DNA of 64,000 nt from Rhizobium leguminosarum (GTDB lineage Bacteria > Pseudomonadota > Alphaproteobacteria > Rhizobiales > Rhizobiaceae), in assembly GCF_002953715.1 (NCBI RefSeq), contig NZ_CP025016.1, positions 1 to 64,000 on the forward strand. The letters run 5' to 3'. This document shows positions 16,139 through 26,804 of the stretch, one piece after another. Both the position numbers and the translations under genes were made by a program. The notes under the pieces were generated by a model, which was not told the origin of the DNA, made no database searches, and saw nothing but the letters and a program-made list of their open reading frames with translations. How positions within the stretch are numbered: position 1 is the stretch's first letter; each line of letters begins with the position of its first letter.

Positions 16139-16150
16139 TTTGTATACAAA
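16139..16150. promoter_or_regulatory. Operator-like palindrome TTTGTATACAAA, proximal copy
   Basis: A perfect 12-bp palindrome at the predicted promoter of the importer operon. It shares the GTATAC centre with the two AGCGTATACGCT sites at the nic promoters. Likely site of the MarR paralogue at 11,079-11,567. Confidence 0.6.
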
Positions 16151-16350
16151 GCAAAATCAGGAGGAATTACAATGATCGCGACTTCTATTTCAGCTCAAGC
16201 GAAAGCGTGTCCCGAACAATAGCCGAACACGGCGTTTAACCCAGAAACGCATTCCAAATCGCGATGCAGGACTTATCCGGAAAACATGGTTTTCCAATTC
16301 AGTCCTCAGTTCAAACCCTCTGATCGTATCGTCAGTCTTTTGATTTTTTA

Positions 16351-16362
16351 TTTGTATACAAA
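16351..16362. promoter_or_regulatory. Operator-like palindrome TTTGTATACAAA, distal copy
   Basis: Identical to the site at 16139-16150 and 212 bp further upstream (start to start), just beyond the GH63-like stop codon. Two identical copies in one 348-bp gap argue for a regulator that binds both, possibly with looping. The rest of the gap shows nothing recognisable. Confidence 0.55.
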
Positions 16363-16386
16363 CTATTATTGATGAATCTTTTTCTG

Positions 16387-18642
16387 TCAAGGTTTTCTTG
16401 GTGTCACCTGAGCGTTGAGCGATGAAAAATAGATCTCAAGCCGCTGCTTTTGCGCGCTTTCGGCAATCTTCACCCGAATGCCCTCAGCGTTTGTGTGATG
16501 ACGGATGTCGTTCCCATCCAGCCGGGCGACGGTGATGTTGCCTGCGGTCATGCCGGAAAGGTCGATGAAGCCGCCGCCGGCAACGGGCGCGATGGTGCAT
16601 GCAAACCTTCCGACGCCGATATCGATCTGCGAGAAGGTTGCCTGCAGGTCCGTCTGCAGCACGGTCCTGTCATTAATCCTCATGGAAAGAACGGCAGCTT
16701 TTACGGAGACATGCAGTGTTCCCGCCGGCGACAGCATGGGGCCGATAGACAGGTCCTGACCAGCATTGTGCACAGTCCATCCAGACCAGGGATCGAAATC
16801 AACGATTTCACCCGTCGCCATCAGCGGCAACAGGGCAGCCCAGATATAGAATGGATCGGTATCACCCTGGTCCATCGCCTCCCCGGTCACTGCATTGTAG
16901 TTCTCGGATGCGATGCGGTCCCTGCTCCAGGACGTCATGAAGAGGTCATAGCTTTGGCTGGCGAGCTTGCTTGCTTCTGCCATGAAGCCGTAACGGCGCA
17001 GGCCGAGCCAGACCATGTAGTTGACGTTCGGCCAGATGCGCCCACGCCAGTAGACGTTCTCGGCAAAGGCCGGGTCGTTGCGTGTGGCGTTGGGCAGGAC
17101 GAAATCCCCGCCGAAGGTCGTCTCGTCGCTCAGGTGCTCAAGCAATCTGGCGGCCTGATCCGACGTGGCCGCCCCGCAAAGGAGCGGGTAGAAACTGGTG
17201 GGCGACAGCGAGCGGACGAACCCGCCATTGCGCTGGCGGTTGGCGAAGAGACCGCGGCTCTCATCCCACAGTGTTTCGGAAATCAGCGTGCGGCAGCGGT
17301 CTGCAACAGCGGCAAAACTTTGCGCTTCCGCATGCTTTCCCAGGACCGTCGCAATGTTTGCCAGCATTTCGGCATCCAGCGCGGCTGCGCTGTTCAATCC
17401 GAGATCGAAGGTGGACAATGTTCGGGTGACGGGGTCGTAGATCGCTTCGTCATGGGTCGCGGAATTGTCCATGCCGGTTTCGTTGCGTGCGCCGAAGGCA
17501 GTCCCTTTGTAGAGGCCTTCGCCGACATCGGAGGTGCCGCAAGATAGCAGGCCGAAGGCGCCGGGATCGCGGTTTTCCCACCACCAGCGTTGATTGCGGG
17601 CAAGGGCATCGTAGTTTGCGGCCAGCATCGAGCGCTCGCCGGTTCGTTGGTAAAGCTGCCAGGCGACGAGCGCACCGTTCGGGTGCTGGCTGCGATCGAC
17701 CCAGGCATCATTGGAGGTGACGATGCAGGCTATATTGCCTTGCGGTGTGGCGCTGGCCATGGCTGTCGCCATGTTTTCGCGCGCTAGGTCAGCATCGAAA
17801 ACACCAGCCAGAAGGGCTGCGAAAAGCTGGTCGTTGTACCAGACCGCAAATTTCCCGAGGTTCCAGATACGGGTCACCGCCGTATAGGGCCGCGCATTGG
17901 TGTCGTCCCAAATGGTGTTCCAGGCGACCACATCCCGAACTGCATCGAGCGACCCATCGAACAGGCCCGTCTGCCCATCCAGTATCTGCGCCGGCGCACT
18001 TTCAGCAAGGCAAGCCCGCGCTTTTGCGATGGCGAGTTCCGCACTGTCGGCGACAGCGGCGGCATAGGTGCCCTTGCGCATCATTTCGAGATTGAAGCGC
18101 AGCGCGATAACAGGCGCCTCGTTGCTGCGGGTCGCCGTGTAGAAATATCCATTTTCCTCGAAATCGGCGCGCAACGCTTCGATCGTGTCATGACCGGTCA
18201 CGTGGACCGGAGCTTCCGCCGTCACGACAGCCACGAACCGGGTGCCGATCTTCAGGAGGGTGGTGTTGCGACCGCTGTCATAGACTCCGATCTCGCCGCC
18301 GTCAGACGAAACCGCCAGCGTCAGCCAGAACCGCAAGCCCCACTCGGCGGATACCGTTCCCTCCCAGTTTCCGCGAACTGCGAAAGGGTCGGTTTTGGTC
18401 GTGGAGAAGGCGACCGTCGTGCCGGTGTGATCCGTTTCAAGTTCGATCAGCGAGCCGTCGATGGCGTGGCGTCCCAGGCGGACAGGATTGCGCCGCGGCT
18501 CGATGGCCGAAGTCGTCTTGCTGCGCGTGGAATACAGCACCGGCGTGATCCGCACCCCGAGCGGCAGGAAAACCATTTCGGCCGGCCGGTCCGACCAGCT
18601 GTTCCAGGCGCGCATCAGGGGGATCGTCGAGTGTTTTGGCAT
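16387..18642 (-). CDS. GH63/MGH1-like glycoside hydrolase ((alpha/alpha)6 barrel)
   Basis: A 751-residue protein with an (alpha/alpha)6-barrel hydrolase core like GH63 glucosidase, mannosylglycerate hydrolase and trehalase. Diagnostic stretches are VVAWNTIWDDTNARPY, YWRGRIWPNVNYMVWLGLRR and SENYNAVTGEAMDQGD, the last two close to the usual catalytic region. About 230 N-terminal residues form a beta-rich domain. There is no signal peptide, so action inside the cell is expected. It lies 15 bp behind the GH106-like gene in the unit that begins with nicA. The sugar specificity cannot be read from sequence. Confidence 0.8.
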   Translation of the reverse strand: MPKHSTIPLMRAWNSWSDRPAEMVFLPLGVRITPVLYSTRSKTTSAIEPRRNPVRLGRHAIDGSLIELETDHTGTTVAFSTTKTDPFAVRGNWEGTVSAEWGLRFWLTLAVSSDGGEIGVYDSGRNTTLLKIGTRFVAVVTAEAPVHVTGHDTIEALRADFEENGYFYTATRSNEAPVIALRFNLEMMRKGTYAAAVADSAELAIAKARACLAESAPAQILDGQTGLFDGSLDAVRDVVAWNTIWDDTNARPYTAVTRIWNLGKFAVWYNDQLFAALLAGVFDADLARENMATAMASATPQGNIACIVTSNDAWVDRSQHPNGALVAWQLYQRTGERSMLAANYDALARNQRWWWENRDPGAFGLLSCGTSDVGEGLYKGTAFGARNETGMDNSATHDEAIYDPVTRTLSTFDLGLNSAAALDAEMLANIATVLGKHAEAQSFAAVADRCRTLISETLWDESRGLFANRQRNGGFVRSLSPTSFYPLLCGAATSDQAARLLEHLSDETTFGGDFVLPNATRNDPAFAENVYWRGRIWPNVNYMVWLGLRRYGFMAEASKLASQSYDLFMTSWSRDRIASENYNAVTGEAMDQGDTDPFYIWAALLPLMATGEIVDFDPWSGWTVHNAGQDLSIGPMLSPAGTLHVSVKAAVLSMRINDRTVLQTDLQATFSQIDIGVGRFACTIAPVAGGGFIDLSGMTAGNITVARLDGNDIRHHTNAEGIRVKIAESAQKQRLEIYFSSLNAQVTPRKP

Positions 18643-18657
18643 GGCTCTGATATCCGG

Positions 18658-26503: not shown

Positions 26504-26646
26504 GGCAGCTGCTCCAGCGCCGCATAAGCGGCCAAACCCAAGCCTTTTGCTACCGGACGGATCGCTATGCGGCGGGGCCCCTTGCGGCGCCTGTTCATCA
26601 TAACGATGCGACTGTCACCGACATCACGCATCTGCTGCCCCTTATT

Positions 26647-26652
26647 ATTATA
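26647..26652 (-). promoter_or_regulatory. -10 box of the nicA promoter
   Basis: On the minus strand a perfect TATAAT hexamer (26652-26647), about 145 bp upstream of nicA. It is separated by only 4 bp from the palindrome AAGCGTATACGCTT, which thus occupies the -35/-10 spacer. Confidence 0.6.
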
Positions 26653-26656
26653 TAAA

Positions 26657-26670
26657 AAGCGTATACGCTT
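26657..26670. promoter_or_regulatory. NicR-type operator at the nicA promoter
   Basis: AAGCGTATACGCTT is a perfect 14-bp palindrome. It sits just upstream of the nicA -10 box and shares a 12-bp core with the site at the nicC promoter. A MarR dimer bound here would block RNA polymerase. Assignment to the encoded NicR-like protein is inferred from context. Confidence 0.7.
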
Positions 26671-26775
26671 CATATGGTAAGCCTGCAAGCCAAATTTTGC
26701 CGTTGCAAACGGCGAGAAACCCGGTAGGCTTTGATTTAATAATTGCAAACTCGACAAAAACCGGATGCCGAGCGC

Positions 26776-26804
26776 TTGCTATTTAAAGCGTATACGCTAT
26801 TAAT
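26776..26804 (+). promoter_or_regulatory. nicC promoter
   Basis: A -35 TTGCTA (26776-26781), 17-bp spacer and -10 ATTAAT (26799-26804) read toward nicC. The operator palindrome lies entirely within the spacer and abuts the -10 box. Confidence 0.55.
26787..26798. promoter_or_regulatory. NicR-type operator at the nicC promoter
   Basis: AGCGTATACGCT, a 12-bp perfect palindrome identical to the core of the nicA site. The two sites, 129 bp apart centre to centre, would let one regulator control both divergent units. Confidence 0.7.

Follow-up and report, generated by a model that had tools for sequence, protein, structure and literature searches.

The closest described relatives of the system considered here are NicR of Pseudomonas putida and BpsR of Bordetella, MarR-family regulators of nicotinate (nic) genes. 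In P. putida, nicC and nicX are reported to be under NicR and nicAB under NicS (PMC10269826). For BpsR, a 2019 structure paper calls the recognized DNA sequence unclear and describes a docking model in which Arg79 and Lys86 are directed at the bases (PMC6837509). A third MarR regulator, the AmnR type of 2-aminophenol clusters, is given a predicted operator TAG(G/T)ACGTATACGTACTA (PMC3790839). Here we analyze a 64,000-nucleotide stretch of Rhizobium leguminosarum (NZ_CP025016.1, positions 1 to 64,000; hereafter the window), which carries a nic cluster with its own nicR, an importer operon with a paralogous MarR gene (MarR2), and four palindromes built on a GTATAC core. Taken as a whole, the four palindromes are best explained as operators of the two repressors, NicR reading class 1 and MarR2 reading class 2, and we hold this explanation to be very probable.

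The original prediction described four such palindromes in two sequence classes, and an exact search recovers all four: class 1 (AGCGTATACGCT) twice between nicA and nicC, and class 2 (TTTGTATACAAA) twice upstream of the importer genes (Table 1). The classes have the GTATAC core in common and differ in the outer three bases. The window holds no other GTATAC; the four copies compare with 1.74 expected, and at least four were seen in 6 of 100 shuffles. The hexamer is scarce in the genome as well, at 159 places compared with 888 for the reversed letters. Motifs frequent at random places in the genome would have spoken against operators, but neither 12-mer has a copy in this genome (7,788,085 bases, 6 contigs) beyond its two places in the window. 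About one chance copy is expected for a 12-mer of such composition. Because the reversed-letter control of each 12-mer also occurs once, what is remarkable is the location at promoters and leaders, not the bare count.

The class-1 sequence recurs at nic promoters of other genomes. In a de novo ranking over 29 rhizobial nicA|nicC regions, AGCGTATACGCT leads the 4096 possible palindromic 12-mers, matching 27 regions with no more than one mismatch and all 29 with no more than two. It also comes first in 33 Pseudomonas nicC|nicX regions (32/33 with at most one mismatch, 33/33 with at most two), a set that keeps to adjacent nicC and nicX and leaves out Ancylobacter (L090 and L093) and Roseomonas (L114). 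Two sites matching the consensus AGYGTATACRCT with at most two mismatches are present in every one of the 29 rhizobial regions, 125-130 bp apart, and in 33 of 33 Pseudomonas regions. The nic alignment has 16 rows, the window and 15 of the 29 loci. At nic, the two site footprints average 0.88 and 0.88 column identity, compared with 0.58 for the best 12-column stretch between them. The Pseudomonas nicR|nicA regions hold AGCGTATACGCT with at most one mismatch in 0 of 32 cases and with at most two in 1 of 32. This presence at nicC/nicX and absence at nicA agrees with the NicR/NicS division reported for P. putida (PMC10269826).

Across a set of 19 genomes, exact AGYGTATACRCT is found in seven of the ten with NicR and in none of the nine without it. 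The three other NicR genomes (G584, G654 = L054, and G372 = L270) carry one-mismatch sites between nicC and its divergent neighbor. Both Ancylobacter loci have two class-1 sites each with at most one mismatch, and at L209, whose protein is 75% identical to BpsR, AGTGTACACACT and AGTGTGTACACT lie between nicC and nicE. These distributions support the reading that predicted class-1 sites follow NicR across genomes. In G187, one of two exact AGCGTATACGCT copies lies elsewhere (L186 1501-1512, G187:C68:43839), apparently within an open frame as judged by eye, and is probably a chance occurrence.

Class 2 behaves in the same way with respect to MarR2. Upstream of 12 importer operons, TTTGTATACAAA ranks first of the 4096 palindromes, and each of the 12 has the promoter palindrome with no more than one mismatch; these are the regions with at least 67% identity of the solute-binding protein (SBP), taken from 30 examined of 56 places found. 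For co-distribution we used 46 of 80 loci, the 80 having been kept from 313 confirmed stretches. A MarR2 relative (at least 54% identical) occurs in 32 of the 46 genomes, and 11 of these hold 13 exact TTTGTATACAAA copies; MarR2 is no more than 6 kb distant from 11 of the copies, 15 kb from one, and on a different contig from the last. Three genomes (G398, G468 and G524) encode MarR2 relatives (57-69%) and carry TTTGTATACAAA at the importer; none of the three has a NicR match at E<=1e-15 or an exact AGYGTATACRCT copy in its genome. In ten Pseudomonas genomes there is no MarR2 match besides NicR; 13 copies of TTTGTATACAAA occur in eight of the ten, none on the contig that carries NicR. Together, these counts support the view that predicted class-2 sites follow MarR2.

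Two further arrangements bear on what MarR2 and NicR may control. Locus L277, from G524, in which NicR was not found, combines MarR2 and nicAB-like genes with four class-2 sites over about 13 kb (exact at 2199, 11541 and 15221, one-mismatch at 7622), all upstream of an open reading frame start. The genes preceded by these sites are hydantoinase A, a flavin-reductase-like gene, and MarR2 together with the nicAB-like genes (6782-15178), a set that is perhaps another N-heterocycle pathway. In G372 (L270) and Ancylobacter L090 and L093, the importer genes follow on from nicC-nicX in the same orientation; NicR-type sites are present there, and no class-2 site was seen. This arrangement connects the importer with nicotinate use and suggests that the importer can be handed over from one regulator to the other.

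The two window regulators are 43-44% identical, and in our tree NicR and MarR2 fall on opposite sides of a branch with 100/100 support, with one change each. The tree uses 70 of 115 rows, near-copies being thinned and L180 left out, and its long branches make the inner joins unsure. Window NicR has the Pfam MarR winged-helix domain (E 6.7e-10), is encoded together with nicotinate catabolic genes, and lies on the same side of this branch as BpsR (structures 6pcp and 6pco), to which it is 56% identical (167 bits to 6pcp; the next other protein, 2nnn, scores 85 bits). It holds all four 6-hydroxynicotinate-contact residues at the aligned positions, Tyr, His, Arg and His. MarR2, on the other side of the branch, reads YFRH in the pocket rather than YHRH and is not counted as NicR/BpsR type; a pocket of Tyr, Phe, Arg and His points to a ligand that is related but not the same. 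YYRH turns up in a few rows of either group. No NCBIfam model reaches its cut-off for either protein. The closest solved structure to MarR2 is the MarR-family protein 2nnn (131 bits), which sits on a long branch in the tree and which we take to come from Pseudomonas aeruginosa.

The recognition helix separates the groups as well. At V74/M86, Q76/(V,M), R80/K92 and K87/V99 (NicR/MarR2), no residue is common to 83 NicR and 28 MarR2 rows, and further differences lie outside the helix. In our own alignment, NicR R80 and K87 correspond to BpsR Arg79 and Lys86, the residues singled out by docking. The proposal of two paralogous MarR repressors with diverged operators is supported by the identity level, the 100/100 branch and the dissociation of the two classes across genomes. 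A side result concerns the Pseudomonas pocket: all 32 Pseudomonas NicR rows listed (L081-L121; KT2440 lies outside this set) read Tyr, His, Arg, His, which contrasts with a statement in PMC6837509 that P. putida NicR does not conserve the 6-hydroxynicotinate-contact residues.

The promoter boxes of Table 1 were assigned from sequence alone. By these boxes, the palindromes at 16351, 26658 and 26787 have the form of MarR operators, inverted repeats that overlap the core promoter of an operon including or adjoining the regulator gene. The original prediction that the palindromes abut or nearly abut a -10 box holds for these three, which overlap or touch inferred promoter elements, but fails for the one at 16139, which lies in the importer leader. 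This second site is found at the equivalent place with at most two mismatches in eight of nine genomes with SBP identity of at least 77%, and with three mismatches in the ninth (L129). Its spacing from the promoter site is 201-212 in seven genomes and 265 in L130, and holds no clear helical phase. Three more distant genomes, with leaders of about 165 nt, have the promoter site only. In a leader of this length, a second operator points to roadblock action or looping. As for a structured leader RNA, Rfam gives no match at gathering thresholds over 8000-36000 of the window. Right after the 16139 palindrome, on the strand opposite the importer, are an AGGAGGA resembling a ribosome-binding site and a 16-codon frame (16160-16222, +), for which conservation is not evident in the alignment by eye.

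We propose that NicR occupies AGYGTATACRCT at the two divergent promoters, those of nicA and nicC, and would block RNA polymerase by covering the -10 box or the -35/-10 spacer, until 6-hydroxynicotinate, the NicAB product, releases it. For MarR2, the proposed target is TTTGYATACAAA, overlying the start of the importer-hydrolase-MarR2 operon, and its binding at the second site, about 210 bp down the leader, may strengthen repression through a roadblock or loop. A related pyridine carboxylate is the probable ligand of MarR2. The common GTATAC core with different outer three bases would reflect a common ancestor and later divergence, along with the recognition-helix differences. Three transcription units are presumed: leftward from 16029 to 8697 (SBP, two permeases, ATPase, isochorismatase-fold hydrolase, MarR2, GH3), leftward from 26503 to 16387 (nicA, nicB, XdhC-like, GH106-like, GH63-like), and rightward from 26862 to 33461 (nicC, D, E, F, nicX-like, MFS, nicR). 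Each MarR gene would therefore sit in a unit whose promoter bears its own site class, the arrangement that autoregulation would need.

Several observations weigh against the assignment of one class to each repressor. Of the 30 importer SBP upstream regions, 17 lack the site; it is absent in six of seven at 61-64% SBP identity (the seventh has two mismatches) and in 11 of 11 at 46-49%. Exact TTTGTATACAAA is missing in 21 of the 32 genomes with a MarR2 relative, G1051 has its exact class-2 palindrome on a contig other than that of MarR2, and in G1059 (L077) a NicR-type gene lies 0.7 kb from the exact copy and MarR2 at a distance of 15 kb. On the class-1 side, Roseomonas L114 lacks any class-1 site despite having nic genes and NicR, and the 12 BpsR-type loci of the phylum sample match loosely, exactly in two and with at most one mismatch in seven, including L220, where nic genes were not seen. 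In the importer leader, the stretch CAGAGGGTTTGA (16311-16322, - strand) equals the leader site in conservation (0.82 versus 0.81 in the nine-genome alignment). Finally, relatedness among the loci means that the counts overstate independence.

Some of these exceptions would suit partial cross-talk, in which both repressors act on either class, each with a preference for its own, giving a graded circuit. Variant sites such as TTCGTATACAAA do occur, and the L077 class-2 palindrome lies near a NicR-type gene; in most loci seen, however, the classes separate cleanly, and we regard cross-talk as possible but doubtful. It is unlikely that all four sites are served by a single MarR protein (NicR or MarR2) that recognizes their GTATAC core, with the flanks only tuning affinity. 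The identical core, the relatedness of the regulators and a largely common recognition helix (DxATIxG) would fit that idea, but class 2 is retained in the three genomes in which NicR was not found, class 1 is retained in Pseudomonas genomes that yielded no MarR2 orthologue, and the flanking AGY and TTT letters are conserved together with the core. We give very little weight to the sites being bound by a non-MarR regulator, or being promoter sequence or chance palindromes: GTATAC does resemble a -10 box, and at nicA may be the -10, yet the palindromy extends to six bases per arm at fixed places kept while the surroundings drift, site presence follows the two MarR genes, and the leader site at 16139 does not fit a promoter explanation. 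Least credible of all is that the 25-nt inverted repeat at 16132-16156/16345-16369 (arms 92% complementary, 188 nt apart) marks the ends of a small mobile element and is not an operator pair, given two sites at equivalent places around a diverged interior in nine genomes, a 12-mer with no copy elsewhere in the genome, and no target duplication visible by eye.

With predicted NicR and MarR2 operators as the preferred explanation, the window can be set against the described systems. MarR operators are a known kind of element, and by analogy the sites would work like ordinary MarR repression. Window NicR is orthologous to P. putida NicR and Bordetella BpsR, lies in a nic cluster and keeps all the 6-hydroxynicotinate contacts, and the sites predicted in Pseudomonas fall at promoters that NicR reportedly represses (PMC10269826). 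The rhizobial locus differs in having sites also at nicA, where P. putida reportedly uses NicS, and, compared with both P. putida and Bordetella, in an importer operon that adds a linked paralogue with its own predicted operators. The AmnR system likewise pairs a MarR gene with a promoter palindrome of the same core, but with different outer bases and a different pathway. AmnR was considered as close kin and set aside: plasmid pCNB carries GTATAC at L191 46713 and 46887, but its protein is only 26-31% identical to the window MarRs, and it serves only as precedent for the core.

Two elements of this analysis are new. One, barring an earlier mapping in P. putida, is a predicted operator consensus for the NicR/BpsR branch; we found no NicR/BpsR operator sequence in the open-licence PMC literature, searched mostly at listing level, and a 2011 study of P. 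putida nic regulation may already map it. The occurrence of AGYGTATACRCT at nic promoters of rhizobia, Ancylobacter and Pseudomonas, and more loosely elsewhere, offers a concrete and quickly testable answer to the BpsR recognition question. The other is a linked paralogue pair with split predicted specificity. With a shared core, different flanks and few candidate residues, it provides a natural two-protein/two-operator pair for mapping a change in MarR specificity. An uncharacterized importer and glycosidases would also be tied to nicotinate catabolism in this way.

A broader and tentative idea, which we think more likely wrong than right, is that plant nicotinate conjugates are handled by a single regulon with two sensors that comprises all three operons, with MarR2 controlling the importer and NicR controlling release and ring breakdown. 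If so, MarR2 would sense the imported conjugate or nicotinate and NicR would sense 6-hydroxynicotinate, cytoplasmic glycosidases would be linked to a MarR2-controlled importer, and the paralogues would have diverged in both their pocket, from His to Phe, and their operator, from AGY to TTT, with the GTATAC core unchanged.

Table 1. Genes, predicted operators and inferred promoter boxes in the window
Feature	Position	Strand	Remark
GH3 glycosidase	8697-11045	-	downstream of MarR2
MarR2, NicR paralogue	11079-11567	-	importer operon; predicted class-2 binder
Isochorismatase-fold hydrolase	11621-12217	-	importer operon
Importer ATPase	12220-13299	-	
Importer permeases	14046-14960, 13256-14134	-	
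SBP of importer	14950-16029	-	PotD/PotF-like
Second class-2 operator (predicted), TTTGTATACAAA	16139-16150		importer leader; 109 bp upstream of importer ATG, 212 bp from promoter site
Class-2 operator (predicted), TTTGTATACAAA	16351-16362		importer promoter; overlaps the -10 by one base (the last of the -10), covers start-site region
Importer -10 (inferred), AATAGT	16362-16367	-	17-bp spacer; sequence and alignment
Importer -35 (inferred), TTGACA	16385-16390	-	invariant in 9/9 aligned promoters
GH63/trehalase-like	16387-18642	-	same direction as nicA-B-xdhC
GH106-like	18658-21402	-	match under curated cut-off; same direction as nicA-B-xdhC
XdhC-like	21395-22420	-	after nicB-like
nicB-like molybdopterin/cytochrome c subunit	22434-25982	-	
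nicA-like [2Fe-2S] subunit	25979-26503	-	
Class-1 operator (predicted), AGCGTATACGCT	26658-26669		nicA promoter
nicA -10 (inferred), TATACG	26660-26665	-	inside operator core; sequence and alignment
nicA -35 (inferred), TTGCAG	26683-26688	-	17 bp before -10; TTGNCA in several relatives
nicC -35 (inferred), TTGCTA	26776-26781	+	TTG invariant in 16/16 aligned rows
Class-1 operator (predicted), AGCGTATACGCT	26787-26798		nicC promoter; occupies end of 17-bp -35/-10 spacer
nicC weak -10 (inferred), ATTAAT	26799-26804	+	poorly conserved
nicC, nicD, nicE, nicF, nicX-like, MFS transporter	26862-32838	+	operon from nicC operator; named by family and pathway order
nicR, MarR-family repressor, BpsR orthologue	32988-33461	+	predicted class-1 binder

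The nicX-like gene has no Pfam or NCBIfam match and was named by synteny. By NicR, the closest named relatives of the locus are in Pararhizobium and Rhizobium, including a plasmid of Pararhizobium qamdonense. In six loci (L271-L276) the importer has GH63-like and GH106-like genes as neighbors; in four of them (L271, L273, L274 and L276) nicAB was not detected in the fetched stretch, and by eye the glycoside hydrolases of the window have no visible signal peptide. This neighborhood suggests that a glycoside, perhaps a nicotinate glycoside, is imported and then hydrolyzed. In L077, the TTTGTATACAAA copy is contained in a 42-bp perfect palindrome centered on GTATAC (11136-11177), 0.7 kb downstream of the NicR-type gene.

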